From NCBI RefSeq assembly GCF_038003085.1, contig NZ_JBBOOM010000001.1:930001-994000 (forward strand): DNA of 64,000 nt. The letters run 5' to 3'. Positions 11,928 to 61,558 of this stretch are shown here, piece by piece. Both the position numbers and the translations under genes were made by a program. Source of the stretch: Psychrobacillus sp. FSL K6-2836. Lineage in GTDB: Bacteria > Bacillota > Bacilli > Bacillales_A > Planococcaceae. Each line of letters starts with the position of its first letter. The first letter of the stretch is position 1. The notes under the pieces were generated by a model that had not been told where the DNA came from, searched no databases, and saw only the letters and a list, made by a program, of their open reading frames with translations.

Positions 11928-12038
11928 TACTTGCTCTTCCTTAGTGAGTACTTGCTCTTTGTCGTTGGTTACTCGCTCTCCTAAGGATTTACTTGCCCTC
12001 TGACTTTGTTTACTTGCTCTCATCTTGTATTTACTTGC
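11928..12038 (+). repeat. 21-bp phased array of TACTTGC words (6 sites)
   Basis: TACTTGC, or one-base variants, starts at 11928, 11949, 11970, 11990, 12011 and 12032: steps of 21, 21, 20, 21 and 21 bp. The bases between the words are not conserved. It lies upstream of the GH13-like gene. A second array of the same word is at 22675-22786. Confidence 0.8.
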
Positions 12039-12082
12039 TTTAGGGAAAAATTATCCATTTCATGACAAACTTTAGTTGTATT

Positions 12083-12210
12083 TTAGCGACGGTGATGGTT
12101 CATCGCTCACCCCGCGGAGGCCAACAGGATGTTGGTCACGAAGGTGTTGCGATCGCGAGGTGGCGCACTTAGCCTTCATTCCTTTGTCACCACCTGTAAT
12201 GGAAATCACC
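12083..12210 (+). repeat. E/G composite repeat
   Basis: Carries the CCAACAGGATGTTGG hairpin, GAAGG...CCTTC enclosing TTGCGATCGCGA, and the E-type end CACCTGTAATGGAAATCACC. It is nearly colinear with 10105-10211, with an extra left part (GCGACGGTGATGGTTCATCG) also seen in the E copy at 3291-3398. Confidence 0.65.
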
Positions 12211-12276
12211 AGAAATTTTCATTCTTTAAAATATCATGATCCCACTATTCCCGATACCATTTTAAAAACTTTCTTA

Positions 12277-12309
12277 TTTAAAAACAAAAACCACCAATCA
12301 TTTTGGTGG
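12277..12309 (-). terminator. Terminator of the small membrane protein gene
   Basis: CCACCAA (12291-12297) pairs with TTGGTGG (12303-12309), with TTTTTGTTTTT following on the minus strand. The hairpin overlaps the last codons of the gene at 12298. Confidence 0.7.
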
Positions 12310-12459
12310 CTTCTCAGTTTTATGGAATTCTTGAAGGATATGTGATTGGAGTTCACCTGGAGAATCGGTGTTGTTTTTTTGTAGGTTAGCAATGATAAAT
12401 GATGTGGCTACAAATGCAATCATTAGGACAATTACTAATATTAGCAATGATATTCCCAT
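12298..12459 (-). CDS. Small single-pass membrane protein, unknown function
   Basis: A 53-residue protein beginning MGISLLILVIVLMIAFVATS: one membrane helix (about residues 3-25) then a hydrophilic tail ending HKTEKPPK. The start is chosen at the ATG behind GAGGGGGAGCAGGAA; the frame is open 16 codons further upstream without a better ribosome site. It is the last gene after yisK and yisL in the same direction. I do not recognise a family. Coding is supported by the ribosome site, membrane pattern and a well-placed terminator. Confidence 0.6.
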   Translation of the reverse strand: MGISLLILVIVLMIAFVATSFIIANLQKNNTDSPGELQSHILQEFHKTEKPPK

Positions 12460-12550
12460 TTCCTGCTCCCCCTCTCTTCTTACCTCTTTCAAATAGCATA
12501 ATATCAATAGATTGAAAAGAAGCTTCCACTATGTGAAAGCTTCCCCGTAC

Positions 12551-12913
12551 TTATGCTAAGAAATTTTCGCCCATTGGTAGTTTGAAACCTAGGAATAGGG
12601 CGATGAAGAAGAAAACAAACATTAACACTAAAAAAGTTGTGTATGGTTTTCCTTTTGCCTTTTTCACTAAAGTCATTTCCATCATACCAATTACTAATAT
12701 ACCTGCTAGGAATTTTAATCCGTAAAGCATTCCTTCACCGAAGTCCATACCTTTGATGAACAAAGCAACTCCCGTAATAATGATCAGGATGTAGAACAAA
12801 CGTAAAATCATATGAACTACTTTCGGTTTTGCAATCGCTAATGCTACAAAAAATAGGATTAGTGCGACTACCCAAGTGGTAATGTGTAAATGTGTTGATG
12901 CTAAGAAATCCAT
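12551..12913 (-). CDS. yisL: YisL-family (UPF0344) membrane protein
   Basis: A 120-residue protein with four predicted membrane helices (about 10-28, 35-55, 64-80 and 93-113). The pattern THLHITTWVVALILFFVAL followed by KPKVVHMILRLFYILIIITG matches the UPF0344/YisL family. It sits just downstream of yisK as in B. subtilis. Its biochemical function is not known. The ATG follows GAGGTGGAAAA. Confidence 0.8.
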   Translation of the reverse strand: MDFLASTHLHITTWVVALILFFVALAIAKPKVVHMILRLFYILIIITGVALFIKGMDFGEGMLYGLKFLAGILVIGMMEMTLVKKAKGKPYTTFLVLMFVFFFIALFLGFKLPMGENFLA

Positions 12914-12967
12914 TTTTCCACCTCAATTATACTTGTAGTTTACTACTATCCTATTTAGTGTACCATG

Positions 12968-13864
12968 TTACTCGAATTTGTTCACTAATGTACCTATTCC
13001 TTCAATCGAAATTTTGACTATATCTCCTGATTTAAGGAAGCGTGGCGGATTAAATCCTTTGCCTACACCTGCAGGGGTCCCTGTTAATATAACATCACCT
13101 GGTTCTAGGGTAACCGATTTCGAAATTTCTGCAATAATTTGTTCAACTGAAAATACCATATCGGAAGTTTTTCCGTTTTGACGAATTTCATCATTCACTT
13201 TTGTCACGACTGCGAGTTCCTGTGGATTCGGCAACTCATCTTTAGTCACTAAGTATGGCCCCATTGGACAAGATCCATCTAGACTTTTCCCTAAGAAATA
13301 TTGCTGATGTTTCGTTTGTAAATCACGTGCCGTTAAATCGTTAGCAATTGTATATCCAAAAATATAATCGTATGCTAACTTTGCCGGAATATTTTTCCCT
13401 TGTTTACCAATAACGATCGCTAGCTCGCCTTCGTAATCATAGGAGTTTGTTATATCTGCATGAAGTGAAAGAGTTTGTTCATCTGCTGCAATAGAAGTTG
13501 GAGACTTCGTAAATACAACAAAATCACTTGCTATGCCACCCATTTCTTTCGCATGGTCAGCGTAGTTTTTACCGACTGCCATAATATTTTTTGGGGTACG
13601 TGGAATTGGTGACAACCACTCGATTTCTGTAAAAGAACGTTTAAAATTATTTGGATTTTCAGCCTTTAGAGCAGCTTCTACTAATTTACGAATTTGTTCG
13701 ACAAAATCCATCCCTAAACGCACACCTTCTAAAATGGTAGTTGGAAAGTCGGGTAATACTTGGAGCGTCTCCTGAATGTGTAAAATATCCCATACTGCCT
13801 CTTCTTTTTTGACTTTTGGTCCGAAGTAATTTTTGTCATTTAAACGGTATGATAATAGTTTCAT
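12968..13864 (-). CDS. yisK: Fumarylacetoacetate hydrolase-family protein YisK
   Basis: A 298-residue FAH-superfamily protein. The catalytic domain spans about residues 90-298, with KNIMAVGKNYADHAKEMG, YDYEGELAIVIGK (metal-binding Glu residues), and DVILTGTPAGVG near the end. An N-terminal extra domain of about 85 residues is typical of YisK. FAH proteins bind a divalent metal and act on oxo-acids; B. subtilis YisK has been described as an oxaloacetate decarboxylase that interacts with the cytoskeletal protein Mbl. The metal-ligand pattern appears intact. The ATG has AAGGGAGTGTCC upstream. Confidence 0.85.
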   Translation of the reverse strand: MKLLSYRLNDKNYFGPKVKKEEAVWDILHIQETLQVLPDFPTTILEGVRLGMDFVEQIRKLVEAALKAENPNNFKRSFTEIEWLSPIPRTPKNIMAVGKNYADHAKEMGGIASDFVVFTKSPTSIAADEQTLSLHADITNSYDYEGELAIVIGKQGKNIPAKLAYDYIFGYTIANDLTARDLQTKHQQYFLGKSLDGSCPMGPYLVTKDELPNPQELAVVTKVNDEIRQNGKTSDMVFSVEQIIAEISKSVTLEPGDVILTGTPAGVGKGFNPPRFLKSGDIVKISIEGIGTLVNKFE

Positions 13865-13908
13865 CTAATGGACACTCCCTTAATTGTTTTAATCTATCTC
13901 TTAGTCTA

Positions 13909-15105
13909 TTACAAATTGAGTTCCTTTTCATCCTTTTTCGATAAACTATTCGAATAAGTCAGTTTTCTCCACACTATTTCTACAGGACCTTGCTTAAATT
14001 TCATAAACCAAATCTCTGCAAATACTATTTGCAAAACGTAAATACCGACAGCCATCCATGTACCTGTGCTTATATCAATCTTTCCGTACAACCCAAATCC
14101 GTAAGCATAAAAAATAGTGGTTGCAATAATTGATTGCATTAAATATATTGTCATGGACATTCTACCGACCTTCCCGATTGGCGAAAGTATTTTAGCACCC
14201 ATCGGAATCAAACAAATCATCGCAATAACACCTGCATAAGCAATCGCTTGGAGTGGGCCACCAAAAGTGTCTTGAACATTCATCGTGAACATATTTGCTT
14301 CATTTTGATATGGAATCAGCTTAATCACTGTACCAATTGCAAAAGCAACAACGATCGTAATAATCCAAAAGACTTTTAACTCTCTCGCTCTTTCGATAAG
14401 CTTCCATTTTGCTGCTGCTGCACCTAATAATAGGAATGGTACAATTGTAATGAACATAACTAAAAGTACTGCCCCACTCCCATTCATATAAAGCCAATCT
14501 TCTAATCGTTGCCAGAAAATATCCAACCATGATCCTTGACCATATGCAAGAACAGATTCTTCAATTGCCTGAATTCCAGTATAAATAATCATGTCATCAG
14601 GGCTAAGTTTGTAGGCCAAGTAAATTAAGCCATTAAGTAAACCATTTGGTACTAAAAATAAGAAAATACTAATAAGAAGTAACCAAATTGGCTTCAATCT
14701 AATCATGAGTATTAAAACAAATCCTGCTAATGCATACGTTATCAAAATGTCTCCTGCCCAAATAAGAAAAGCATGAATACATCCGATTAATAGTAAAACG
14801 GACAATCGTCGAACAGCAAATTTAGAAAAAGCACCGCCATTTGCTTCAGATTTCATAAATTGCATAGCCAAACCGTATCCAAATAACATAGAGAATAGCG
14901 GATACACACTTCCTTGTACAAAAATGTCAATCATTTTAAACGTCTCATAATCACTTGGATTTTGATACCAAGTATATGGATTAATATAAATATATGGAGT
15001 ATGGAAAAACAACATATTCACGACAAATATCCCGAGTAGGGCGAACCCTCTCATAACATCTATTGAAATAATGCGTTCACTTACTCCCGTTGGTTTGATT
15101 TGCAA
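13909..15105 (-). CDS. DUF418 family integral membrane protein (YeiB-like)
   Basis: A 398-residue multi-pass membrane protein. It opens with RIISIDVMRGFALLGIFVVNM, the usual start of this family, and has about ten hydrophobic helices. The C-terminal half (from about residue 230) carries the DUF418 part, with MSMTIYLMQSIIATTIFYAYG near residue 318. The start is a TTG with GGGGGAG five bases upstream. It follows addA by 11 bp in the same direction, so it may be cotranscribed with addBA. Function unknown; such proteins are often listed as putative transporters or acyltransferase-like. Confidence 0.8.
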   Translation of the reverse strand: MQIKPTGVSERIISIDVMRGFALLGIFVVNMLFFHTPYIYINPYTWYQNPSDYETFKMIDIFVQGSVYPLFSMLFGYGLAMQFMKSEANGGAFSKFAVRRLSVLLLIGCIHAFLIWAGDILITYALAGFVLILMIRLKPIWLLLISIFLFLVPNGLLNGLIYLAYKLSPDDMIIYTGIQAIEESVLAYGQGSWLDIFWQRLEDWLYMNGSGAVLLVMFITIVPFLLLGAAAAKWKLIERARELKVFWIITIVVAFAIGTVIKLIPYQNEANMFTMNVQDTFGGPLQAIAYAGVIAMICLIPMGAKILSPIGKVGRMSMTIYLMQSIIATTIFYAYGFGLYGKIDISTGTWMAVGIYVLQIVFAEIWFMKFKQGPVEIVWRKLTYSNSLSKKDEKELNL

Positions 15106-15116
15106 GCTTTCTCCCC

Positions 15117-18100: not shown

Positions 18101-18830
18101 TACGAATCTCCTCTGTTACGGCGATCGCCTCTTCTAAATGATGAATAATGGCAAGTTTCAATGGACCAATAAATGACAATTCATCTATGGTCACTTCTTC
18201 GGACAGGTTATAGGCTTCCGGAATTGCCAGCAACCACTTCCTCGGCTCTGGATGTACACGCGAATAAGAATATAGTTTTTCAATCATCACTTCAATAGAT
18301 TGGTCGTCACGATCGGATGTGAAACTATCCGATAGTCGGTACATCGCCTCTGGATTGTCGACATGATAAGCCTCTTCTAGTACTTCTGCTAACATATCAT
18401 CACGCATGATTGCAGCTTCTGTTTCATTTGCAATACGGAAACCTGGATCTATCGTTAACATATACGCATATTGCCGAACAATATTTAAGCAAAAAGAATG
18501 TAGTGTAGAAATTTGAGCTTTGTTTAACAGACTTAGTTGTTTTCGTAAATGATTCGATGTTGGATCTTTCGCTATAGCCTTCTCTAGCGCCTCTCCCATA
18601 CGATGACGCATTTCTGCAGCAGATGCATTCGTAAAGGTAACGACTAATAGCTCATCGACATTGATAGGTTGTTCTTTGGCTATGACTTTTTGAATGAGTC
18701 GGTCGATGAGGACAGCTGTTTTCCCAGAGCCTGCAGCAGCGGAAACAAGTACATCTGAACCCGCAGCCCAGATTGCCTTCCATTGTGCAGGTGTCCATGT
18801 TAGCTCTGCTGGCATATTAGGAATGTTCAT
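15117..18830 (-). CDS. addA: ATP-dependent helicase/nuclease subunit A
   Basis: A 1237-residue UvrD-like helicase with a C-terminal nuclease domain, the usual AddA size. Walker A is SAAAGSGKTAVLIDR (about residue 31), motif II is LVDEYQDTN, and later motifs include MTIHSSKGLEFPVVF and RVLYVAMTRAKEHL. The nuclease centre is GVVDCLFLEDDGHWVLLDYKTDK near residue 1165, with catalytic Asp and Lys intact. AddAB processes double-strand DNA ends to a Chi sequence and starts recombinational repair. The start ATG lies inside the end of addB (14-bp overlap), which implies translational coupling. Confidence 0.97.
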   Translation of the reverse strand: MNIPNMPAELTWTPAQWKAIWAAGSDVLVSAAAGSGKTAVLIDRLIQKVIAKEQPINVDELLVVTFTNASAAEMRHRMGEALEKAIAKDPTSNHLRKQLSLLNKAQISTLHSFCLNIVRQYAYMLTIDPGFRIANETEAAIMRDDMLAEVLEEAYHVDNPEAMYRLSDSFTSDRDDQSIEVMIEKLYSYSRVHPEPRKWLLAIPEAYNLSEEVTIDELSFIGPLKLAIIHHLEEAIAVTEEIRRLANEPNGPAPLAETAMIDQQMIQEAVDLMKNSSWQSVFHYFQGIKWGRAAAIKKDSCDEGLKNQATNKRTKVKKIVNDLKDNYFTRTPERLLEEMRLMAPQLQKLVELTLAYGERYTAAKNEKGLVDFSDLEHHALDILSEQDENGSLIPSDIAKEYKARFKEVLVDEYQDTNLLQETILQFVKSGDENKGNMFMVGDVKQSIYRFRLAEPMLFLGKYLAFNDLPIDSGIKIDLNANFRSRKEVLHATNYIFSQIMGEQVGEIEYDEAASLKPGAPYEETETPVEIALLYEVEDGSAEPAEEEEETVEAMAEEELKKSQAEARYIISKINEMIQSETTVYDPWKKAHRPVRYSDMVILMRSMTWSGEVTEQFKVAGIPLYAELSKGYFEAIEVLIMLHTLRTIDNPYQDISLASVLRSPFVGLTESELALIRLSAPKDSFYDALKTFVSSGGAGLSPDTAEKLQRFLLQYEDWRDLSRRGSLADLIWQIYLDTHYYEIVGAMPNGKQRQANLRILHDRAIDYEKTSFRGLFRFLRFIDRMRKRGDDLGAARAIGEKENVVRLMTIHSSKGLEFPVVFLAGMGRPFNQMDFNESYLFDQSFGLAVKAIDPEKRISFTSLPFLSMKEKKQMELKAEEMRVLYVAMTRAKEHLFLIGSIKDLAKSLEKWEDAQNVLSDEMLPGYIRAKAKGYLDWIGPALARHTNFRQLSDVNEANIVDSESKWKIVAKCVDDLKHIALEEEKEAVVLDQLIDPAKSTYLKEVQLRFDTPYSYEIATHKRSKQTVSEMKKIQQLMERSDDDYFQMSGPTSLKKIAKRPFFLQQETILTGAEAGTAVHAFMQNVDLQEEKDEEQILLFAERLAEREILTKAEQAAIDPNKMVPFFRSDIAMRLRNAKEVMREFPFTYALEDDDGDKQIIQGVVDCLFLEDDGHWVLLDYKTDKVKHLVNNESLLQQEMQKRYELQLSLYTQAIEAILQVEIKEKVLYLFDINRTVSF

Positions 18831-21800
18831 TTGGACTCATCTCCTCTCTAATTTTTTCTGCTACTATTTCCGGCTGCTCCACTTTCAATACACGTACTTG
18901 TTGAGCAGGATCCTGAGGATCGAATTGGCAAACACTGCGATACGAGCAGTAATTACATGGCATTTTATCTTTAATTCGATAAGGTAAAACGCGAGTATCT
19001 CCAGCATTCATCCCGTTTCCGGCTTGTTCATGCTTTTTCCGAACAAAGGACTGCAGCAATCTCATTTGCTCTGGCTCTACTACCTTAGAGGATGATTTAG
19101 ACAAGTTTCCGTCTTTGTTCATACGTACCGGAATAACTTTAGAAAATCCCGAAATCTGATCGTCCATCTCCATAATAACTTCTGAATCATCAACGAGTAG
19201 ACCATTCATTTTATATGATTTATAAACGGCATCCTCAAGTTCCGCATCTTCCATTTCTTTTTGAGATTGGATAAACGGATTATGCATATGCACATATAAA
19301 ACTCCTGCTGGATCAGCGTCCTCGTGTAGCCATATATCGGCATTTTCTACAGCAACGTCTAAATAAGTTAACATTTGAAGAGAAATACCATGGTAAACCT
19401 CGTTCAAATCAATCCCTTTTTTAGATGATTTATAATCGACAATCCGAACAAACATATTGCCGTTAATATTAGCTGCATCCACTCTATCGATTCGACCACG
19501 TAATTGCATTTTCCGATTACGCTTTAGGGGAATTTCTAGTGCTGGCAACGCTTCTCCAGGACCAAATCCTGCTTCTATAGCAATTGGAACAAAGCCTGAG
19601 CCTTTAGAATGCCTACTTAAGGCGATCAATGTATTAGCAACGATTTGCTCCAATTTTCGTTGGATATACCGATAGCGATTTGTACTTAATAATAATTGGT
19701 GTACAAAGACTGGCACGATATAATCGACTGCTTGTCTAGCAAGCTGGTAGCATTGTTGTCTAGTTAACTGAGACCAAAGTAAATCTAACCGCTTCGTTTC
19801 ATCCGCAATCCATTTTAACGCCGCATGAAATAAGTCTCCCATTTGCGGTGCTTCTAATTTATACTCTGCACGTTCTTCTAGCTTTAGGCCGTATGATGCG
19901 TAATGTGCAAACGGGCAGCTATAATATTTCTCTACACGGGACACACTGGATAGCATCGTTTCCCCGTATAGGGCAGCAGTCATCTGTTCATTTAATCTTT
20001 CGGTTTGATTGCCATGAATTAAAGGCTTTGTGATTCTCTTCAATAATTTGGACCAATATGGATCCTCTAAATAATATTGATAGACAGACTGCCAAACTTG
20101 CGATAGTTCTCCTGTTTCTAGCGCACCTCGAAGCTGCATAATCACATATGGCAATGTAGGACGCGGGTGACTTATGGAAGTCAAATCAAATTCTTCCGTT
20201 AACATATCTCTTGGATCCACTACAGCTACTTCAACAGGTATATCGCTTACCATTTGATGAAGCTTTTTAATATACATAGAAGGCAACAATGCTTTCCCCT
20301 CATTATCTGCCATTGGATAAGATACGTATAAGAAATGAGATGCTGTTACGAGTGCTTTATATATTAAATAATTTTCATCCATCAAACGCATTTTCGACGT
20401 TGGCGCAAGTTCAAATCCAATTTGAGTAAACCATTCACGCTCTGTATCCGTTAGCAGTCCCTCATGATCCATCCGTTTTGGATAAGCTCCATCATTTACG
20501 CCAAGCACAAATGCTGCTTTTATATTCGTTAAACGAATGATATCAACGTTCCCAACAATCACTTGATCAATCGTAGGCGGAATGCTTGAAAAAGCAAGTT
20601 GATCGTATCCTTCTTCTAAAATTTTTGCTACTTCTTCTAAGGACATTTCCTTCTCACCAAACATCAAGACAAATTGGTCGATTACATTTACCCACTCGTT
20701 CCAAACTTGCTCATGCTCGGAAGCTAGAAGTAATTGACCGTTTTCCTCTTCGGCTTGTTTCAAGCTTTGCAGTTTTTCATATATATTTAGCCCTTCAATA
20801 AATGTATAAATAGCTATCGCATAATCCTTTCCTGTTTTACTTTGTTTCAGCTGATCGGAAAGGACTTTAATAGGTTCGACAATCAAATCTCTTACTGTAT
20901 GAATATCTGCTTGAATACTCAACTCTTCATCAGTTTGCACTTTTGAATAAAACTCTAAGCCACGATATTTTTTATAAACCCAGCGTCTTTCATCTAGCCA
21001 TCTATCCCCATAAATTCCGAATGCCAGCACAAAATTCTCCAGACGGTCGGCACGCTCTCTCCATGTTTTTTTAGGGGCATCTAGCGGAAAAAATAGATCT
21101 GTCTTCACCGCACGAAAAACTGGTTCGTATTTCCAGTCTGTTCGAATTATTTCTAAAATGGTTCGACTAAGTTCGATTAATGGATGGTGTAACATCGGTT
21201 TCTTTTTACTAATGAAAACGGGAATATCATATTGCGGAAAAATAGTTTCGATTAGCCCTTCATATGCGTCCGCATCTCTATGCAAAATAGCCATTTCGTT
21301 ATAACGAACATTTTTCTGTTGCGCAAGTTCTCGTATTTGCCTTGCTACTGCATGCATTTCCGCACGACGATTGGCAGCTTCTGTTATGCGAATATTCCCC
21401 TCTGACTTTGTTTGCAGGGGAGGAAGCTGATCCATATTAGCCTCAATATGAGCGATTTCTTGTGACGTAAACCGCTTCTGTTCATGTTGATGTACCGTTT
21501 CTTCTATCTCAACTTTTTCGGTTTGGGCTATTTCTAATAATCTTACACATGTATTTGCAGGCTGATAAAACAGTGATTGTTCATCTATAGCATCCTGCAA
21601 TGTTTCCATTGGAAGGGCAATTGTAATACGCTTCACCTGTTTCATTAGTTCCTCGATAATCTCTAATTCTCTCGTCGTAAATGATGTGAAACCATCAATG
21701 TATAAATTTGTTTTTGCAAGTAGTGTGGAGTCTTTTATTTTAGTTGCTAATAACGTTAAATACCCTTCTCCATCAATGTAACTAACCCCTAGTTTTTGCT

Positions 21801-22311
21801 CCATCTTTTCAAGCATCAGCATTATATCAGAGGATTTATCAATAAGCGTTTTTGGAGCATTCACATTTTCTAAATTGCTAAGAGCATTTGCCATTGTAGA
21901 GTAATCCATACAGTATCTACTAAACTCTTTCAGTAATACTTCGATTTGATCGGTAAATCCTCTTTTAGTTGCTGCTCGTTTAAAAAGCGTAAATTCATCT
22001 TTGTGGTTTTCTAGTAGACTACGAATGAGCATACGGTAGCCGAACCCACTTATTTCTTCTTTGGCAATTCCACCAGTTTCTTGAAGAACACGCCATGCTA
22101 ATCGTTTAAACGTCGTTACCTGTGCTCGAATTAGTCCAGGAAGTCCCGATTCTGCTGCAAGGTCATACTCACTGGAAAATGACATTTGGTCAGGTACTAT
22201 GTAGAATATTGGATCTCCTATAGGAGCTTTTTGTAGTTCTGTAATAATTTCTTTGTGGATAAAAGTTGTTTTTCCATAGCCTGATCGGCCACTAATTATT
22301 CGTAACGACAA
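18817..22311 (-). CDS. addB: ATP-dependent helicase/nuclease subunit B
   Basis: A 1164-residue AddB. It starts with SLRIISGRSGYGKTTFIHKE (Walker A), lacks other good helicase motifs as is normal, and has the nuclease core RGRIDRVD...RIVDYKSSKKG near residue 950. The iron-sulfur cluster ligands are one Cys in YYSCPFAHYASYG (about 800) and the C-terminal CNYCSYRSVC group. The start codon is TTG, with AAAGGAG about ten bases upstream. It forms the AddAB complex, in which this subunit recognises Chi and cuts the 5' strand. It is the first gene of the addB-addA unit. Confidence 0.97.
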   Translation of the reverse strand: MSLRIISGRSGYGKTTFIHKEIITELQKAPIGDPIFYIVPDQMSFSSEYDLAAESGLPGLIRAQVTTFKRLAWRVLQETGGIAKEEISGFGYRMLIRSLLENHKDEFTLFKRAATKRGFTDQIEVLLKEFSRYCMDYSTMANALSNLENVNAPKTLIDKSSDIMLMLEKMEQKLGVSYIDGEGYLTLLATKIKDSTLLAKTNLYIDGFTSFTTRELEIIEELMKQVKRITIALPMETLQDAIDEQSLFYQPANTCVRLLEIAQTEKVEIEETVHQHEQKRFTSQEIAHIEANMDQLPPLQTKSEGNIRITEAANRRAEMHAVARQIRELAQQKNVRYNEMAILHRDADAYEGLIETIFPQYDIPVFISKKKPMLHHPLIELSRTILEIIRTDWKYEPVFRAVKTDLFFPLDAPKKTWRERADRLENFVLAFGIYGDRWLDERRWVYKKYRGLEFYSKVQTDEELSIQADIHTVRDLIVEPIKVLSDQLKQSKTGKDYAIAIYTFIEGLNIYEKLQSLKQAEEENGQLLLASEHEQVWNEWVNVIDQFVLMFGEKEMSLEEVAKILEEGYDQLAFSSIPPTIDQVIVGNVDIIRLTNIKAAFVLGVNDGAYPKRMDHEGLLTDTEREWFTQIGFELAPTSKMRLMDENYLIYKALVTASHFLYVSYPMADNEGKALLPSMYIKKLHQMVSDIPVEVAVVDPRDMLTEEFDLTSISHPRPTLPYVIMQLRGALETGELSQVWQSVYQYYLEDPYWSKLLKRITKPLIHGNQTERLNEQMTAALYGETMLSSVSRVEKYYSCPFAHYASYGLKLEERAEYKLEAPQMGDLFHAALKWIADETKRLDLLWSQLTRQQCYQLARQAVDYIVPVFVHQLLLSTNRYRYIQRKLEQIVANTLIALSRHSKGSGFVPIAIEAGFGPGEALPALEIPLKRNRKMQLRGRIDRVDAANINGNMFVRIVDYKSSKKGIDLNEVYHGISLQMLTYLDVAVENADIWLHEDADPAGVLYVHMHNPFIQSQKEMEDAELEDAVYKSYKMNGLLVDDSEVIMEMDDQISGFSKVIPVRMNKDGNLSKSSSKVVEPEQMRLLQSFVRKKHEQAGNGMNAGDTRVLPYRIKDKMPCNYCSYRSVCQFDPQDPAQQVRVLKVEQPEIVAEKIREEMSPNEHS

Positions 22312-22510: not shown

Positions 22511-22674
22511 AAGTGGGTAGGTTTAAACTATAAGATTGAGCAGAATTAGTATTATAAAAACGATGATTGAAAAAAATTAAATAAATTGACAAACATCAAA
22601 ACCTAACCTTTAGAGCGGCAGTAAATAACTTTTAGAAGTACCTGAATGAAGAAATTCTCTACATTTTCATCAGT

Positions 22675-22786
22675 TACTTGCGGAGGCACGTTAATTACTT
22701 GTGTACGTAAGATATTTACTTGCACTGCTTTATAAGATATTTGCGCTTACTGTTCGTTTACTTGCTCTCGATGCTAATTTACTTGC
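22675..22786 (+). repeat. 21-bp phased array of TACTTGC words (6 sites)
   Basis: TACTTGC or close variants start at 22675, 22696, 22717, 22738 (TATTTGC), 22759 and 22780, five exact 21-bp steps. Intervening bases differ. It is about 365 bp upstream of addB. Apart from this array and two E repeats, the gap 22312-23240 shows nothing gene-like. Confidence 0.85.
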
Positions 22787-22984
22787 GAAACGGAAAATTT
22801 ATCTAATAATTATCAACTCATGCATGCTTTCGGTAATGCGTACAAAGCCTTTAGATATCTATTATGGATGATTGCTCAATTAAACTCCAACTAAGTCAAT
22901 TTCATAATTAACTGTTTCAATTAAAATTACAAATATTTGCGTGATACCACAATTTTTTATTCGTTTTTTAAAAGTCGATCTAGT

Positions 22985-23240: not shown

Positions 23241-23307
23241 AAAAAAAACCGAATAATCTCCTATCTCTATTGTACAAAACAAACTACGAAAGAGGGAAAT
23301 TATTCGG
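23241..23307 (-). terminator. Terminator of the signal peptidase gene
   Basis: CCGAATAAT (23249-23257) pairs with ATTATTCGG (23299-23307) around a long loop. Eight T residues follow on the minus strand. The distal arm overlaps the stop codon. Confidence 0.55.
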
Positions 23308-23851
23308 AATAGAATTGGATTGTTGCCTTCGAGATGGGCCAGTAGCGCACCTGCACCTCACCAACAATTTCTTTCATATCTACAAAGTGAAAATATCGAC
23401 TATCCATACTGGAAATACGATTATCTCCTAAAACAAACAACTTATCTGGTGGAACCCGTTTACTTCCGGTCAGTTCTTCCAATTCAAAATCTCCAGTGAA
23501 GTTATCATTTGGATTTCCGTATGCACTAAAAGATTTTAGATAAGGCTCTTCTACTTTTTTATTATTAATAAATAACTCATCGTTCTCATAGCTAATCATA
23601 TCACCTGGTAGACCAATTACACGCTTCACATAATCTTCACGTTGATCACCATGGAAAATCACTATATCCATCCGATCAATTTTAGAAAGCTTATTAACAA
23701 TTACTCTATCTTCGTTATGCAATGTAGGCGTCATTGACTGTCCAACTACTTCATAATTTGTCACAAGAAACATTCTTACAAACATCACGATTAAAATACC
23801 AATTACTAATGCTGTCAACCATTCCAACATTTCTTTTTTTAGATTATTCAA
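23300..23851 (-). CDS. Type I signal peptidase
   Basis: A 183-residue SipS/SipT/SipV-type signal peptidase. It has one N-terminal membrane anchor (about residues 10-30), the catalytic Ser in VVGQSMTPTL (Ser38) and the catalytic Lys in YVKRVIGLPGD (about residue 75). Box E is FVLGDNRISSMDSRYF. It removes signal peptides from exported proteins at the outer membrane face. The start is a TTG behind GAGGAG with a 6-base gap, overlapping the end of the VTT-domain gene by 8 bp. B. subtilis yhjE-sipV has the same pairing. Confidence 0.93.
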   Translation of the reverse strand: MNNLKKEMLEWLTALVIGILIVMFVRMFLVTNYEVVGQSMTPTLHNEDRVIVNKLSKIDRMDIVIFHGDQREDYVKRVIGLPGDMISYENDELFINNKKVEEPYLKSFSAYGNPNDNFTGDFELEELTGSKRVPPDKLFVLGDNRISSMDSRYFHFVDMKEIVGEVQVRYWPISKATIQFYSE

Positions 23852-38539: not shown

Positions 38540-38793
38540 TGCTTTTCTTTATGTCCAGCTCCAGACTCCAGCCTCTCGAGTCGCTTCAAGATTAAGGTAA
38601 AGGCAAAGTACGCCTTTCCTCTTTATCTTTCCAGCGCTGGTCGAGGCTTACAGGCGTCCTGCGCTTTTTTTTATGGCCAGCTCCAGACGCCAGCCTCTCG
38701 AGTCGCTTCAAGATTAAGGTAAAGGCAAAATACGTCTTTCCTCTTAATCTTTCCAGCGCTGGTCGAGGCTTACAGGCGTCTTGCGCTTTTCTT
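38540..38793 (-). repeat. Tandem pair of a 122-bp repeat between prfB and secA
   Basis: Two nearly identical units 122 bp apart, each containing CCAGCTCCAGAC, CCAGCCTCTCGAGTCGCTTC, AAGATTAAGGTAAAGGC, CCAGCGCTGGTCGAGGCTTA and CAGGCGTC. A fragment of the same family is at 6799-6848. It fills the whole gap upstream of prfB. Confidence 0.75.
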
Positions 38794-38795
38794 TA

Positions 38796-41306
38796 TTAAT
38801 TCACAGCACCGTGGCAGTTTTTGAATTTTTCGCCGCTTCCGCATGGACATGGATCGTTACGGCCGACGGAAACTTCTTTGCGCACAGGTTTTTTCTTCAC
38901 AGGACCGCTTTCTTCTTTTGGATTTACAGCTTGCCCTTTTGCTACTTCTTCACGTTCAAGGTTATTACGAATTTCTGCTTTCATCGCATATTTCGCAACG
39001 TCTTCCTGGATGGAATCGACCATTGCTTCGAACATGGCAAATCCTTCACTTTGGTATTCACGAAGTGGATCTGTTTGTCCGTATGCGCGCAAATGGATTC
39101 CTTGGCGAAGTTGATCCATTGCATCGATATGGTCGATCCATTTGGAGTCAATAGAACGAAGTAATACTACTTTTTCAAACTCACGCATACGTTCTGCAGT
39201 CATTTCTTCTTCTTTCGCATCGTAGAATCGAATTACTTCTTCTTTGATTTTTTCTATCATTTCTTCAGAAGATAAATTTTCTAGTACCGATTGTGTTATT
39301 ACCCCTTCAGGCAATAAATTCGCTTGAATGTAATCTTCAATCCCTTTCAAACTCCAATCAGCCTTATTCTCAGAGCTTGTATGAGAAGAAACTAAACGTT
39401 CAATTGCGCCGAATAGCATAGACTCTACAAGTGCACGCATATTCTCTGTTTCTAATACTTCGTTACGTTCTTTGTAAATGATTTCACGTTGCTGACGTAG
39501 TACATCATCATATTGTAATAGACGCTTACGTGAATCGAAGTTATTTCCTTCTACACGTTTTTGCGCCGATTCCACTGCTCGAGATACCATCTTCGATTGA
39601 ATTGGTTGGGAGTCATCCATTCCGAGCTTGGACATCATGGCACGCATATTGTCAGAGCCAAAACGACGCATCAATTCATCTTCCATCGATAAATAGAACT
39701 GTGTGACCCCTGGATCTCCTTGACGACCAGAACGTCCACGTAATTGGTTATCGATACGACGAGATTCATGTCTCTCCGTCCCAATTACTGCTAAACCGCC
39801 GACTTCAATGACACCATCGCCTAATTTAATATCTGTTCCACGACCAGCCATATTTGTTGCAATCGTAACAGAACCTAAATGTCCAGCTGTTGCAATAATT
39901 TCTGCCTCATGTTCATGGTTTTTGGCATTTAATACATTATGCTTAATGCCATGTTTGGTTAACAGTTTAGAAATAATTTCAGAGGTTTCAATGGCAACAG
40001 TACCAATTAGAACTGGTTGCCCATTTTTATTGCGTTCAGCAATATCAGCTGCCGCCGCTTCATATTTACCATTCATGGAAGCATAGATTAAATCTGCACG
40101 GTCATCCCTTGCAATTGGACGGTTAGTTGGAATGGCAATAACATTCATATTGTAGATATTACGGAATTCTTCTTCTTCCGTTTTTGCTGTACCGGTCATT
40201 CCAGACAGCTTATCGTACATACGGAAAAAGTTTTGGAACGTAATCGTAGCCATCGTCATCGATTCATTTTGGACTTCTAAGCCTTCTTTTGCTTCAATCG
40301 CTTGATGAAGACCATCACTGTAACGACGACCTTTCATCAGACGACCCGTAAACGAATCGACGATTACAACATCACCTTCTTGAACGACATAGTCGATATC
40401 AAGATGCATAGAAGCATGGGCTTTTAATGATTGATTGACTGCATGATTTAAACGAACATGAGTCAAATCAAATAAATTATCGATATTGAAAGCTTTTTCT
40501 ACTTTTTCTACACCAGTATCCGTTAGAGTTACACCTTTTGTAGATTCTTCATAAGAATAATCTACCTCTTTTGTTAATGTACGCACAAATGCATTTGCTT
40601 GTTTATAAAGAAGAGCCGCTTTGTTTGCTTGTCCAGAAATGATTAAAGGCGTTCTTGCTTCATCGATTAAGATGGAGTCAACTTCATCGATTACTGCATA
40701 GTGAAGCGGACGTTGAACTTTATCTTCCTTGTATAGCACCATATTATCTCGTAAATAATCGAACCCAAGCTCATTGTTCGTCGAATACGTAACATCCGCC
40801 GCATAAGCTTCACGTTTTTCTTCTTTAGATAATGAATTTAAATTCAATCCAACACTTAAACCTAGGAAATTATATAATTGTCCCATCTCAGCAGCATCAC
40901 GGCTAGACAGGTATTCGTTAACCGTCACGACATGCGCACCAAGACCTGTAATTGCATTTAAATAAATAGACATGGTAGAGGTTAGCGTTTTACCTTCCCC
41001 TGTTTTCATCTCCGCAATATTACCTTCGTGAAGAGCTGCTGCCCCCATGATTTGAACACGGAAAGGGAACATTCCCAGTACACGTTTAGATCCTTCACGT
41101 GCTACGGCAAATGCCTCTGGCAATAGGCTATCTAAGTTTTCTCCTTTAGTATAACGACCACGGAACTCATCTGTTTTCGCGCGGAGCTCACCATCAGACA
41201 ATGCATCCATAGTACTTTCTAATGCTTCTACTTTATCCGCAATTTTTTCTAAGCGTTTTAGATCACGTTTATTTAAATCGAACACTTTATTTAATACACC
41301 TAGCAT
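38796..41306 (-). CDS. secA: Preprotein translocase ATPase SecA
   Basis: An 836-residue SecA. Walker A is MKTGEGKTL (about 101-109), the DEAD-type motif is [21 protein letters not shown], and [13 protein letters not shown] plus [14 protein letters not shown] are the later helicase motifs. The C-terminal SEC-C zinc site [20 protein letters not shown] is complete. It drives Sec-dependent protein export at the membrane. Its place between prfB and hpf is conserved in Bacillales. Confidence 0.98.
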
Positions 41307-47168: not shown

Positions 47169-47272
47169 GTGAATTCCTCCATTTGATTTATAGGTTACTT
47201 TTCGTAAGTAATTATATTTTAGTTACCTAACAAAGTCAAGTGATGAGTTTAAGGTATGTCGAGGGAATGGTG

Positions 47273-47323
47273 AATCACAAGGTCTTCGTGTGGAATCGCA
47301 AATAGATGGGATAGAATCGCTAC
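47273..47323 (+). repeat. Short 21-bp phased AATCGCA array (3 sites)
   Basis: AATCACAA, AATCGCAA and AATCGCTA start at 47273, 47294 and 47315, two exact 21-bp steps. The same word forms the array at 59948-60132. It directly precedes the large GCAAC array. Confidence 0.65.
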
Positions 47324-47355
47324 ATTTTTGGACGTTGAGGAAGCAATATAATTTT

Positions 47356-48325
47356 GCGCAACTTACTGGGGCTTATACGCAACATTATCCCCTGTTCTCG
47401 CAACATCCGGGTGCCTTTACGCAACATTTCCGCACTTTTAAGCAACGTTTTCGGTTTGCGCAACTTACTATTCCGTATGCGCAACATTATCCTCTGTTCT
47501 CGCAACATCCGGGTGCCTTTACGCAACCTTTCCGGGTGTTGGCGCAACGTTTTTGATTTGCGCAACTTGCTATTCCGTATACGCAACATTATCCCCTGTT
47601 CTCGCAACATCCGAGTGCGTTTACTCAACATTTCTGCACGTTTAAGCAACATTTTCGATTTGCGCAACTTGCTATTCCGTATGCACAACATTATCCTCTG
47701 TTCTCGCAACATCCGAGTGCGTTTACGCAACGGTTCAGCACGTTTAAGCAACGTTTTCGGTTTGCACAACTTACTATTCCGTATGCGCAACATTATCCTC
47801 TGTTCTCGCAACATCCGAGTTCGTTTACGCAACATTTTCGCACTTTTAAGCAACGTTTTCGGTTTGCGCAACTTGCTATTCCGTATGCGCAACATTATCC
47901 TCTGTTCTCGCAACATCAGGATGCGTTTACGCAACATTTCCGCACTTTTAAGCAACGTTTTTGGTTTGCGCGACTTACTATTCCGTATGCGCAACATTAT
48001 CCCCTGATCTCGCAACATCCGAGTTCGTTTACGCAACGGTTCCGCACGTTTAAGCAATGTTTTCGGTTTGCGCAACTTACTATTCCGTATGCGCAACATT
48101 ATCCCCTGATCTCACAACATCCGAGTGCGTTTACGCAACATTTCCGCACGTTTAAGCAACATTTTCGGTTTGCGCAACTTACTATTCCGTATGCGCAACA
48201 TTATCCCCTGTTCTCGCAACATCCGAGTGCGTTTACGCAACATTTCCGCACGTTTAAGCAACGTTTTCGGTTTGCGCAACTTACTATTCCGTATGCGCAA
48301 CATTATCCTCTGTTCTCGCAACATT
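47356..48325 (+). repeat. GCAAC array: nine exact 102-bp units of 21-21-21-21-18 bp
   Basis: The unit start GCGCAACTT recurs at 47356, 47458, 47560, 47662, 47764 (GCACAACTT), 47866, 47968, 48070, 48172 and 48274, always 102 bp apart, giving nine full units and a partial tenth. Each unit has five GCAAC words followed by different filler (for example GCAACATTATCCTCTG and GCAACATCCGAGTGCG) spaced 21, 21, 21, 21 and 18 bp. There are base substitutions but no indels. Because every spacing is a multiple of 3, long open frames appear on both strands. Confidence 0.9.
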
Positions 48326-48355: not shown

Positions 48356-48391
48356 ATTAAAACACCACTAGCTCATTATGGCTAGTGGTGT
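48356..48391 (-). terminator. Terminator at the end of the ilv-leu-ilvA cluster
   Basis: An 11-bp perfect stem (ACACCACTAGC 48362-48372 with 48381-48391) and 8-nt loop. TTTTAATG follows on the minus strand. Confidence 0.75.
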
Positions 48392-57445: not shown

Positions 57446-57530
57446 AAATTCCTCCTTTTAATCAAATCGTCCAGTTTTCTTGAAAAGCTTCGTTTGACTT
57501 GGTGCTTTAAATTACTGAAGTATAATTTAT

Positions 57531-57599
57531 AAAAAAGAAAAGAATTTCACCCCACACAAAGAAACCTTCGTTCTTTTGTATAGGGATGAAATTCTTTTC
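57531..57599 (-). terminator. T-box-controlled terminator upstream of ilvB
   Basis: AAAAGAATTTCATCCC pairs with GGGGTGAAATTCTTTT around a variable loop, followed by CTTTTTT on the minus strand. The proximal arm follows the T-box sequence immediately, the usual arrangement for the alternative antiterminator. Confidence 0.88.
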
Positions 57600-57830
57600 A
57601 TGGTACCACCCTAGTTCGTAGCGCAACCGCTACCTCGCAGACAACAGGCAAACGCCCACCATCCATTTATAACGAGAGTAGCTAAACTACACCCGGAAGT
57701 ATCTAAAAGGTTTCCCGTTCAACACTTCACTCCGAGGGGATGTCGCTAAAGGTTGTATTGCCGGTTCCCACCACACCGACTCTCTGTAAATACAAGTTTC
57801 CTTTAACTTTTGCCTCATCAATGATTTATA
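57531..57830 (-). promoter_or_regulatory. T-box leader (probable leucine specifier CUC) of the ilvB operon
   Basis: On the minus strand the conserved T-box AGGGTGGTACCA (about 57600-57611) follows stem I elements: CAGAGAGTCGGTGTGGTGGG and then ACATCCCCTCGGAGTGAAG, in which CTC is the likely specifier codon. Uncharged tRNA-Leu pairing would stabilise the antiterminator and switch on ilvB-leuD. This is the same amino acid used by the B. subtilis ilv-leu leader. No strong promoter is visible between the ilvD stop (57870) and the leader, so transcription may come partly from ilvD. Confidence 0.88.
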
Positions 57831-57869
57831 TATTTGGTTTTTAATCAAATTGATATATAGAGATTTCTT

Positions 57870-59537: not shown

Positions 59538-59600
59538 TTCAATCGCTCCTATACTTACCGCTTATGTAGCGTTTAGCTTTGCAGCTCTGAATATTAAGTC

Positions 59601-59621
59601 ATTGTGAATTTTCTCACAATA
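59601..59621. promoter_or_regulatory. Palindromic operator upstream of ilvD (CodY-like and TGTGA-N6-TCACA)
   Basis: ATTGTGA-N6-TCACAAT (59601-59620) is a perfect inverted repeat containing TGTGA-N6-TCACA, the CRP/FNR-type consensus. It overlaps AATTTTCTCACAATA (59607-59621), which matches the CodY box AATTTTCWGAAAATT at 12 of 15 positions. It is centred about 20 bases after the expected transcription start, fitting repression. Confidence 0.55.
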
Positions 59622-59638
59622 TTTAATATATTGTTGAT

Positions 59639-59667
59639 ATCATAACGCCTTTAAAATGCTGCGTCAA
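59639..59667 (-). promoter_or_regulatory. Sigma-A promoter of ilvD
   Basis: On the minus strand TTGACG (59662-59667) and TATGAT (59639-59644) are exactly 17 bp apart. Confidence 0.75.
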
Positions 59668-59947
59668 CACCCTTTTTTATAATTGTCAGTTATTTTTGAA
59701 TATTCTTTTTGTTTGTAATCGCTTACATCTGCGATATATCGCATTTTGCAGGAAATAAAAATAATTGTGAACTTTTTGTTAAAATGACGTGAGTATGTAA
59801 GATGATTGAGTCGTTGAGGAGGGGAAAAGGAATTCTTGTTTGATGTTGCTATTATGAAAAGAAATTGTTGGATTAAGTGCAGGGAGTTAATAGTGAGATG
59901 AAGTGTGGATAGAGATTATATAGTTAATAAAAGTTGATCGCACTTTA

Positions 59948-60132
59948 AATCGCAAGTTCTCTTGTGAGAATCACAATATCATATAGTTAAATCGCAAGTT
60001 ATTAGTCGGGAATCGCAAGGTCTCAGCTTACTTTTTGCGAATCGCAAGTTATGTGCTCTGAATCGCAAGGTCAGTCGCGTGAATCGCAATAATACATACT
60101 CGAATCGCAAGTTAATTGTCGGGAATCGCAAG
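59948..60132 (+). repeat. 21-bp phased AATCGCAAG array (9 sites)
   Basis: AATCGCAAG or a close variant starts at 59948, 59969 (AATCACAAT), 59990, 60011, 60040, 60061, 60082 (AATCGCAAT), 60103 and 60124. Seven of eight steps are exactly 21 bp and one is 29 bp. The filler between words differs each time. The rest of 59670-60220 shows nothing gene-like. Confidence 0.88.
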
Positions 60133-60220
60133 TCTGCTTACTTTTATACGAAACGAAGTTACAGCGTAGATCAAAATCTTTTGGTGATATAGTTTAATTT
60201 GAGAAATTTAAAAGAAAGAA

Positions 60221-60259
60221 AACAAGTATACCCCTTTCTCAACAAAGAGAAAGGGGTAT
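60221..60259 (-). terminator. Terminator of the gene at 60263
   Basis: ATACCCCTTTCTC (60228-60240) pairs with GAGAAAGGGGTAT (60247-60259) around a 6-nt loop. ACTTGTTTTC follows on the minus strand. Confidence 0.75.
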
Positions 60260-60262
60260 CTA

Positions 60263-60694
60263 TTACCACAAATTAGGTTTTGCAACCATGAACCATAGCA
60301 TGATTAGTAATAATAAAATATATTTCCATACAGCAGACTTTAATTTTTTTATGAGTGTATCTAGATCAATCGTTCCTGCTTGGAATTCCCGTATATTTGG
60401 TTTAAATGCTCTTGCTAGAAACACAATAGAACTCGCCATCACTACAATCGTCATAATCACCCACGAGGTTGTCCATGGCCAATTTCCCTGCCATACAAGA
60501 AGAATCCCCGAACCAACAAGTACATGACCGGCGTGTTTAACAAGTCGAATTGCCGCTTGAAACACTTCTAGCGATGTATCTAACATCTCTTTATTTTTGC
60601 CTTTCATCCTATTTAATAAAGGAAATAGAACAAAAAATGGTCCAATCGATAATACTGCACTAATTACATGTATGAAAATAATGAATGTATACAT
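60263..60694 (-). CDS. Four-helix integral membrane protein, unknown function (DUF2269-like)
   Basis: A 143-residue membrane protein with four predicted helices (about 3-25, 50-68, 74-94 and 118-138). His9 in FIIFIHVISAVLSIGPFF and His54 in VKHAGHVLVGSGILL sit inside helices, as in small haem- or copper-related families, so a DUF2269/CopD-like relation is plausible but not certain. It is monocistronic with its own terminator. A 101-bp-period GCAAC array lies about 160 bp upstream. Confidence 0.6.
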   Translation of the reverse strand: MYTFIIFIHVISAVLSIGPFFVLFPLLNRMKGKNKEMLDTSLEVFQAAIRLVKHAGHVLVGSGILLVWQGNWPWTTSWVIMTIVVMASSIVFLARAFKPNIREFQAGTIDLDTLIKKLKSAVWKYILLLLIMLWFMVAKPNLW

Positions 60695-60856
60695 TTCGAA
60701 ACAACTCCCTACTGCTAGTATACTTGATTTTCATCGAAAACTTTGTGACGAGTTCTAGAATAATAAAAGATAATTTTAGGCAAAAATAAGGGCACTCCCT
60801 AGTTTCATTTTATAATCAGTAAGGTGTTCCCCCTAAAGGATTTGAGGAAAAACTTT

Positions 60857-61558
60857 CTCGCAACGTTTAATACGGTTTGCGCAATGTTTTTCTCATATGC
60901 GCAACATTACGACCTCTTCTCGCAACATCCGGAACTGTTTACGCAACATTCTAGTTTCTCGCAACGTTTATTGCGGTTTACGCAATGTTTTTCGTGTTTA
61001 CGCAACATTATTGCCTCTTCTCGCAACATCGTGAACCGTTTGCGCAACTTTCTTGTTTCTCGCAACGTTTAATGCGGTTTACGCGATGTTTTTCGTTTAT
61101 GCGCAACATTATTACCTCATCTCACAACATCGGGAACTGTTTGCGCAACTTACTCACTTCTCGCAACGTTTAATGCGATTTGCGCAATGTTTTTCTCATA
61201 TGCGCAACATTACGACCTCTTCTCGCAACATCCGGAACTGTTTACGCAACATTCTAGTTTCTCGCAACGTTTAATGCGGTTTACGCAATGTTTTTCGTGT
61301 TTACGCAACATTATTGACTCTACTCGCAACATCGTGACCCGTTTGCGCAACTTTCTTGTTTCTCGCAACGTTTAATGCGGTTTACGCGATGTTTTTCGTT
61401 TATGCGCAACATTATTACCTCATCTCACAACATCGGGAACTGTTTGCGCAAATTACTCACTTCTCGCAACGTTTAATGCGATTTGCGCAATGTTTTTCGC
61501 TTATGCGCAACATTACGATCAGTTCTCGCAACATCATAGCCTGTTTACGCAACATACA
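60857..61558 (+). repeat. GCAAC array: 101-bp units in a 303-bp higher-order repeat
   Basis: CTCGCAACGTTTA recurs at 60857, 60958, 61059, 61160, 61261, 61362 and 61463, always 101 bp apart. Units fall into three sequence types in the order A-B-C-A-B-C plus a partial seventh. Thus 60857-61159 and 61160-61462 are near-identical 303-bp copies. Inside each unit the GCAAC/GCAAT words are spaced 21, 20, 21, 21 and 18 bp. The 101-bp period shifts the reading frame at every unit, so the short ORFs here are not genes. Confidence 0.9.

Follow-up and report, generated by a model that had tools for sequence, protein, structure and literature searches.

Intergenic arrays with a constant 21 bp step and changing cores in Psychrobacillus sp. 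FSL K6-2836 and its relatives

The arrays of the window

The DNA analysed here, referred to throughout as the window, is a stretch of 64,000 nucleotides (bases 930,001–994,000) of a 4.23 Mb contig of Psychrobacillus sp. FSL K6-2836, a strain with a genome of 4.54 Mb that is labelled G000 below. Its gene gaps hold five arrays of short head-to-tail repeats, in which a conserved core typically returns every 21 bp and is followed by variable filler of nearly fixed length (Table 1). All five had been noted in the original prediction and lie well beyond chance: the window has 39 pairs of GCAAC with 15–17 bases between them, whereas 100 dinucleotide shuffles gave a mean of 0.26 (maximum of 2). They belong to a chromosome-wide set with at least five core classes, for which a role as binding sites of oligomerizing proteins is considered below. 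Other genomes are given labels beginning with G and fetched loci labels beginning with L; A′ denotes the form of class A in genome G008.

The class A array beside the alpha-amylase-domain gene proceeds in steps of 21, 21, 20, 21 and 21 bp, its terminal unit carrying TTATCCATTT, and that between addB and the signal peptidase gene has orthologous arrays at L077 and L170. The larger class C array comprises about 9.5 modules of 102 bp, each made up of four 21 bp steps and one 18 bp step, and is bounded by the terminator-like hairpin of a PALP gene and the promoter-like site of a glyoxalase-domain gene; next to it lies a degenerate class B remnant, at the site of which some relatives carry an intact class B array. 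The class B array of the window has steps of 21, 42, 21, 29, 21 and 42 bp, and the second class C array, with one 18 bp step per module, adjoins the hairpin of the chemoreceptor gene.

The original prediction had placed every array between a terminator and the promoter region of the next codirectional gene. A terminator-type hairpin is indeed present in four of the five gaps, on the side of the array facing the upstream gene, and good promoter-like sites follow two of the arrays; on the other hand, a scan of 22.3–23.3 kb found no terminator-like hairpin by the array at 22670–22800. The numbers of hairpin and promoter matches are about those expected from shuffled sequence, so that their support comes from position, and the hairpins at 48362–48391 and 61596–61629 were scored by the scan on the plus strand while the genes run on the minus strand.

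Table 1. Arrays, signals and flanking genes in the window
Feature	Position	Strand	Remarks
Class A array (TTTACTTGC core)	11922..12045	+	Five intact units and one TACTCGC variant
Class A array	22670..22800	+	About six units, among them the variants TACTTGT and ATTTGC
Degenerate class B remnant	47272..47326	-	GAATC at 47272, 47293 and 47314, exactly 21 bp apart
Class C array	47341..48324	-	GTTGCG on minus, equivalent to GCAAC on plus
Class B array (CTTGCGATT on minus)	59939..60135	-	Seven AATCGCAAG-word units and further variants
Class C array	60854..61555	-	101 bp modules inside a 303 bp higher-order repeat
Terminator-like hairpin	48362..48391	.	Between PALP gene and array; minus-strand T-run TTTTAA by eye
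Terminator-like hairpin	61596..61629	.	Between chemoreceptor gene and array; minus-strand T-run TTTTTTGTG by eye
Terminator-like hairpin	60259-60228	-	Beside the 59939-60135 array
Promoter-like site TTGACT-17-TATAAT	47239-47211	-	After the 47341-48324 array
Promoter-like site TTGACG-17-TATGAT	59667-59639	-	After the 59939-60135 array
Alpha-amylase-domain gene	10325-11809	-	Flanks the 11922-12045 array
DUF1516 gene	12551-12913	-	Flanks the 11922-12045 array
addB	18817-22311	-	Flanks the 22670-22800 array
Signal peptidase gene	23300-23851	-	Flanks the 22670-22800 array
Chemoreceptor gene	61635-63053	-	Its hairpin adjoins the 60854-61555 array

Among other features, the window contains four copies of the Bacillaceae-1 RNA (RF01690), at 3967–4032, 4949–5014, 10132–10199 and 12121–12188, the last of which is separated from the class A array (11922–12045) by about 75 bp, and a 122 bp unit present 2.1 times (94% matches) at 38541–38796, just past the 3′ end of an open frame of 836 residues.

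A common step with many cores

On the chromosome of G000 at least five core classes recur at the 21 bp step, namely A (TTTACTTGC), B (CTTGCGATT), C (GTTGCG), D (TTATGTGG) and E (CTCTCGTATAG), the last two of which were first detected by a scan that assumes no core. Genome-wide, 123 pairs of the class A word TACTTGC, 41 pairs of the class B word ATCGCAA, 50 triples of the class C word GCAAC and 96 pairs of the class D word TTATGTGK were counted, with no match to the reversed patterns that served as controls; the class E word CTCTCGT gave 99 pairs against seven in its control, the reversed word of which, TGCTCTC, is part of the class A core. In 400 contiguous kilobases of G000 (1.0–1.4 Mb, selected for richness in class D), the core-free scan yielded 34 clusters of period 21, compared with 0–5 for each of the other periods between 14 and 32; the rise seen at longer lags results from the larger number of columns compared, and 42 is a harmonic. 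At least three class A–E cores are held by 24 of these clusters, while ten fit none of the classes, and the density of classed arrays in this class-D-rich region is about one per 17 kb. The loci L001–L089, L118–L137 and L156–L175 were selected for holding arrays, and the core-free scan of fetched loci, like the position-conservation figures given below, is consequently biased upward.

The 21 bp periodicity is therefore present genome-wide beyond the loci of the window, and the original prediction withstands this test. GCAA as the unifying core, by contrast, had to be abandoned: the class-agnostic scan yields cores without it, and classes D and E and further cores seen in relatives share only the step with the remaining classes, which makes the step, and not GCAA, the invariant. 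A possible further 21 bp class with the core CGCTCG was seen at L344 7496–7991 (contig C1 of G000, 1167496 and 1167810), and one class E pair lies off the chromosome, at 55523 of contig C4 of G000.

Architecture of the units

Class A units consist of TTTACTTGC[TG]NT[CT] and about nine free bases, class B units of AACTTGCGATT[CT] and about ten, and class C units of AATGTTGCGNRWA and about eight, the middle letters of each consensus being fixed by the search words themselves. Exact 21 bp steps make up 296 of 315 short steps in class A, 68 of 72 in A′, 59 of 72 in class B and 99 of 122 in class C (81–94%), in arrays of three to more than 40 repeats. The predicted step is thus dominant but not exclusive, since 11 steps in class B, the AATCGCAAG class, measure 29 bp and 20 in class C measure 18 bp. 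One 18 bp step is found for about every five units in the window arrays and at L051, L067, L090 and L095; class C steps of 39 bp (21 + 18) occur at L067, L068 and L070, and L069 has neither 18 nor 39 bp steps. The 29 bp step is found in the window and at L051, L062, L065 and L175, and is absent from L075, L076 and L169.

The filler, which had been described as unconstrained, is random-like between neighbours: adjacent fillers are 0.27–0.34 identical, compared with 0.30–0.35 for random filler pairs of the same class, and hence behave as independent sequence, although their length is kept. It is nevertheless not wholly free, being GC-rich, with a GC content of 0.43–0.63 versus 0.354 in intergenic and 0.378 in genic DNA. 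Between species, the identity of the cores of classes A, B and C (0.884, 0.875 and 0.830) exceeds that of the fillers (0.738, 0.662 and 0.623), with flanking sequence at 0.77–0.81 and nominal Fisher p values for core versus filler of 2e-8 to 3e-13 when positions are treated as independent. This comparison drew on 28 flank-matched pairs from three species, not all of them independent, and in one of them no core position was aligned. In the 22 kb array, inspected by eye, G000 and G006 have six units each, the last three plainly alike and the first three with drifted fillers; one unit reads CTCTCGATGCTAA in both genomes and CTCGATGTTGA in a G001 copy.

The ends of the arrays also carry recurrent words. 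In G000 and G001, the last unit is followed by a loose tail word, GRAR-N-RG, in 34 of 48 class A chains, and in 22 of the 48 by a more complete tail resembling GRAACGGRAATTTATYCA that continues into TTTATYC or a similar sequence. The A′ arrays of G008 often end in TTGCCCTTARCCATTTAYTGGATT or a variant of it, and by eye 15 of 32 A′ chains begin with a common head similar to CGTCTCACTCCAAGTAAACTTGTTATTTTAAGA. Within cores, the commonest change is C>T at TTGC (9 of 29 changes in class A and 6 of 14 in class C). A CpG-methylation footprint was considered for the core mutations and set aside, as a G:C to A:T bias alone could yield the same pattern.

Location relative to genes

Genes were called by dicodon scoring and 119 clusters from four genomes were scored for their gaps, using a detector that demands at least seven identical columns in four consecutive units and detects three of the five window arrays; clusters lacking a called gene on either side were passed over, uncounted. 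Fifteen of the 119 lie inside called genes, some of them resembling true protein repeats. The 104 intergenic arrays are distributed over 61 tandem, 36 convergent and seven divergent gaps, compared with 178, 70 and 60 among the 308 gaps of at least 150 bp at the same loci, so that divergent gaps are avoided (7/104 versus 60/308, p = 0.002) and convergent gaps somewhat favoured (p = 0.02). In the contiguous 400 kb, 14 of 25 arrays are found in tandem gaps, four in convergent gaps, three in divergent gaps and three in called genes, with one lacking a gene on one side, and the gaps as a whole number 68 tandem, 24 convergent and 21 divergent.

The claim that the arrays occur solely between minus-strand genes and never in convergent gaps thus holds inside the window but not across the four genomes, and the minus-strand setting can be traced to the strand bias of this chromosome arm. 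Genes are mostly on the minus strand below about 2.02 Mb and mostly on the plus strand above about 2.30 Mb, and the sign of the GC skew, which matches the gene strand apart from a few loci, switches in the same interval. Of the class B and C chains of G000, 14 of 16 run in the direction of the preceding gene, which is automatic in convergent gaps; class A chains show no constant orientation relative to genes, and inspection by eye of the places listed gave no clear rule for their orientation with replichore polarity. No shared neighbour family emerged among the 141 genes compared, which are first or second neighbours of arrays in G000 and form only small clusters; four of the six proteins in the largest cluster were scanned, giving three with SLH domains and one subtilase. 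Neither a mobile-element gene nor a cas gene was found among 27 array-neighbouring proteins scanned.

Conservation, turnover and copying

Array positions show partial conservation among relatives, so that the original prediction withstands this second test too. In 24 of 28 flank-matched comparisons the partner gap retains three or more cores of the class, a figure that is biased upward as stated above. Fetching the PALP gap by its gene gave nine close orthologues (eight from Psychrobacillus and one from Bacillus sp.) and one from Jeotgalibacillus, the gap of which has no array. One of the close orthologues (L094) is cut by a contig end, leaving eight readable gaps, five of which (L090, L091, L095, L096 and L098) hold intact class C and/or B runs. 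L092 and L093 hold mainly degenerate B units, and L097 (around 5000–5060) two B units 21 bp apart, one of them degenerate, in the orientation opposite to that of the other orthologues. In four relatives class C is followed by class B in one orientation; the window has class C followed by the three-unit B remnant.

In another gap it is as if the classes replaced each other, to judge from the orthologous pair L047 3607–3932 (G000, class E) and L159 3130–4391 (G006, class A). Core A itself differs between species, being TTTACTTGC in G000, G001 and G006 and TTTGGTTGC-like in the listed G008 matches, while class B remains CTTGCGATT in G008. A concerted switch of the core at orthologous loci was considered and rejected: four of 20 A′ stretches of G008 align over at least 1 kb with fetched G000 or G001 loci, and one of these four has arrays in the same gap in both genomes.

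Class D is unevenly distributed, with 30 pairs in G013, six in G008, four in G003, one in G017 and none in the other 14 genus genomes, besides the 96 of G000. Along the chromosome, 15 of 19 class D loci of G000 fall within 1.0–1.4 Mb of contig C1 and nine of 11 loci of G013 within 400 kb (contig C1, 2.94–3.27 Mb), counts that rest on class D and E locus positions entered manually, those less than about 1 kb apart being merged; merging within 2 kb gives 13 of 17 and eight of ten for class D. Class E clusters too (11 of 22 loci in 400 kb, p = 0.0002), and classes A, B and C are not clustered along G000 (p = 0.11–0.68). Since some class D loci 4–25 kb apart have fillers in common, which shows that arrays are copied locally, the territory may reflect spread and not function. 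At four G008 loci (L118, L120, L122 and L125) the A′ array is carried by homologous segments of 300–560 bp, which possibly represent a dispersed element.

Related bacteria and viral sequences

The nearest named relatives of the strain include P. antarcticus and P. psychrodurans. Psychrobacillus is placed in the Bacillaceae by the NCBI taxonomy, and the family counts given here refer to its GTDB family, the Planococcaceae. A three-unit pattern for classes A–C matches 18 of the 19 genomes of the genus (0–241 matches, with controls of at most 2) and 164 of the 261 genomes of the family, many of which have only one or two matches, no more than their own controls; high control scores in some genera of the family are due to the presence of the reversed word in their cores. 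Ten family genomes, mostly picked for high pattern counts, were sampled with 18 stretches of 20 kb that were chosen without regard to arrays; these stretches yielded 13 clusters of period 21, against 0–4 for each other lag between 14 and 40. These clusters come from six of the ten genomes, and eight overlap long open frames according to a crude mask, two of the 13 resembling protein repeats. The cores found in relatives at 20–21 bp include AACTCTCCTCACTC, GAGTGTAANCGGA, TTTGGGGAACTC, CACCAAAGGG and AAAAACGCTCAGG. At L117 1927–2574 (G066), the cores AAAAACGCTCAGG and CCAAAACAGCTCGGG alternate, each mostly 21 bp after the other.

Across 200 genomes of the class, a four-unit pattern gave matches in 11, of which three belong to the family. 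G417 and G429, which lie outside it, carry noncoding 21 bp arrays with varying filler, so that the trait is not strictly confined to the family; the remaining six out-of-family genomes show coding or near-perfect repeats by eye. The stretches from these two genomes (four) were placed on pattern matches, as was L143 among the 14 further stretches from other Bacilli (264.5 kb), several genomes of which were chosen for having such matches; those 14 hold three period-21 clusters, all in open frames and one of them hit-placed. Scans of viral sequences with four patterns returned 22, 11, at least 120 and seven stretches. Among the matches listed, 153 of 160 lie within open frames of 80 or more residues, which would fit in-frame protein repeats or chance, and none of those inspected among the seven outside such frames (L184, L195, L246, L315, L321, L333 and L334) extends beyond the two or three units searched for. 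The 47 kb array, the only one compared in this way, had no blastn match to plasmid or phage carriers.

Comparison with described repeats

No description of these arrays was found in the open-licence literature of PubMed Central (PMC). The closest described kind is the STAR elements of staphylococci, three defining features of which are lacking in the present arrays. Both are interspersed intergenic direct repeats with a short conserved core, locus-specific spacers and a copy number that expands and contracts, STAR elements likewise have no known function, and their 'start signature' can be counted as a further likeness (PMC3532100). The same source attributes to STAR elements one GC-rich 14 bp core, T(G/A/T)TGTTG(G/T)GGCCC(C/A), spacers of 40–44 bp, a start signature GTGGGACAGAAATGAT and locations that are not conserved between species (PMC3532100). 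The arrays, in contrast, combine a strict two-turn step of 21 bp and 8–10 bp of filler with a set of many cores different from that of STAR, and several of them are conserved in position between species. In 354 fetched loci the STAR core has a single match (L348 7803, where no period-21 cluster is listed) and the start signature none.

The operators of LytTR regulators are regulator-bound 9 bp direct repeats mostly 12 bp apart, equivalent to a 21 bp step, and the repeat pair lies just upstream of the −35 box (PMC6193735). Direct repeats at this step are shared by the arrays, which differ in their three to more than 40 repeats, in following terminator-like hairpins in the window, in being depleted from divergent gaps and in cores that, across classes, do not match the LytTR consensus when compared by eye. 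Plasmid iterons and the sites at transposon ends are direct sites of 19–22 bp, spaced at two turns and bound by a multimerizing protein, but with one array per replicon or element beside its own gene, whereas each class of the arrays occupies tens of chromosomal loci, with no common gene found among those compared.

BIME and REP sequences prefer 3′ and convergent gaps, a likeness to the arrays. Like the arrays, they have many intergenic copies; these act as sites for cell proteins, REPs being palindromic and alternating in BIMEs (PMC2817692, PMC8266576); no inverted pairs of at least 12 bp were found in the two class C arrays of the window, to which this test was confined. The TAACTGA heptamer forms direct repeats that are abundant genome-wide and of unknown function, mostly with two to six copies and, in the main genome of that study, usually located just a few bases before the start codon (PMC4679880). 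In comparison with CRISPR, the fillers of 8–10 bp are too short to be traced, and those of the orthologous 22 kb arrays drift by point change. The feature expected of two-turn protein arrays, a step close to a multiple of 10.5 bp combined with free filler, is present apart from the phase-breaking 18 and 29 bp steps. What is new relative to known intergenic direct repeats is the invariant step across many cores.

Interpretation and rival explanations

The preferred interpretation, which stands about an even chance of being correct, is that the arrays are tandem head-to-tail sites for class-specific oligomerizing DNA-binding proteins, dispersed by copying. A conserved core combined with free filler of fixed length is the signature that would be expected of proteins bound side by side. 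The core, the step, the polarity, the block structure, the location, the pattern of conservation and the turnover of the arrays are observed; the protein, its oligomerization and any purpose that the arrays may have for the cell are inferred. Each core class is predicted to have its own DNA-binding protein or diverged paralogue, one unit of which would recognize the core of 9–13 bp while neighbours would touch across two helical turns, so that distance would matter and filler hardly would. As 21 bp corresponds to two turns, neighbours would lie on one face within a block that is ended by an 18 or 29 bp step, and as one such step occurs in classes C and B for roughly every five units, a block of some 4–6 in-phase sites is probably the working unit. 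The arrays would mostly occupy gaps in which no divergent promoter is disturbed; their origin and spread would rest on modules of several units being duplicated and on arrays being copied into other gaps, often close by.

RNA folding of 14 arrays on both strands, with 40 shuffles each, gave z values of −2.3 to +4.0 without consistent sign, and the intrinsic curvature of 104 arrays, estimated using a wedge model, had a mean z of 0.21 versus 0.20 in intergenic controls; together these point to DNA rather than to RNA or shape. The scaffold for an oligomerizing protein put forward in the original prediction agrees with the conservation of core and spacing but not filler, while its extension along one helix face throughout an array does not survive the 18 and 29 bp steps.

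Several observations weigh against this binding-site interpretation. The 18 and 29 bp steps break the helical phase, the GC-rich filler has no explanation in the model, and the many cores would require many proteins. The core-versus-filler test is affected by the global alignment of tandem repeats, which favours the pairing of core with core. The avoidance of divergent gaps is weak or absent in the contiguous 400 kb (3/25 arrays), and the neighbours of the arrays are ordinary and varied, with no binding protein found among the genes scanned. Turnover is high, three of the eight readable PALP-gap orthologues having only few, mainly degenerate, units, and both the presence of another core class in the same orthologous gap and the A′ loci, mostly unmatched to fetched class A loci, speak against a fixed role of the locus. 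Finally, class D occurs in only five of the 19 genus genomes, including that of the window and one with a single pair, and the three-unit STTGC pattern has no match in G018.

Selfish or neutral satellite-like elements offer a possible, if rather doubtful, explanation, in which core and step would serve the copying machinery, such as a transposase-like protein or a recombination protein that docks at two-turn intervals in the manner of transposon-end proteins, and the cell would gain nothing. The self-amplifying repeats first proposed as an alternative are of this kind, and the duplication of modules (102, 101 and 303 bp), the fillers common to class D loci, the packing of these loci in both G000 and G013, the homologous segments around the four A′ arrays, the tolerated gaps and the gain and loss of arrays all fit them. 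Yet no mobile-element gene was present among the neighbours scanned, class A fillers of different units or loci are as unlike as random ones, and cores are kept at orthologous positions in three species. The selfish and the binding-site interpretations differ in benefit, not in anatomy.

A more ambitious form of the protein-binding interpretation, namely chromosome-wide class-specific nucleoprotein arrays, is unlikely. A family of oligomerizing proteins would coat blocks of about 100 bp, some classes would mark territories and words would be swapped as species diverge, with protein and array co-evolving quickly; the basis cited for territories is that in two species most of class D is confined to about 0.4 Mb.

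Plain minisatellites, formed through slippage and unequal exchange without the involvement of a protein, their old units diverging, seem quite unlikely. Copy numbers do vary between species, modules are near-identical at some loci and some relatives, such as G045, have perfect or near-perfect 21 bp repeats, but slippage copies whole units, and adjacent fillers are random while cores stay; moreover, the same cores recur at tens of loci, and drift should scatter the step, whereas other lags remain near background. It is very improbable that the arrays act at the RNA level, transcribed as guide-like, sponge-like or regulatory RNA with the filler as spacer. A core with variable filler of constant total length does look CRISPR-like, and the prevailing orientation of class B and C chains along the preceding gene would suit transcription, but the window arrays come after terminator-like hairpins, class A lacks a fixed gene orientation, no RNA-fold excess was found, no Rfam family lies on any window array, and the fillers of the orthologous 22 kb arrays drift and are not replaced wholesale. 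Coding repeats of seven-codon units can practically be discounted: 21 and 18 are multiples of three, and long open frames run through some arrays on both strands, but steps of 20, 29, 41 and 101 bp shift the frame and 104 of the 119 scored clusters lie outside called genes.

Concluding remarks

If arrays with different words and one spacing recur family-wide, cells of these bacteria would measure two helical turns and tolerate nearly any filler. As word, filler and step can each be changed separately, the system is unusually testable, and the outcome might be either a novel type of DNA-coating protein in Gram-positive bacteria or a novel type of selfish DNA that has its geometry built in. On account of their variation in copy number between species, the arrays might also serve as typing markers.

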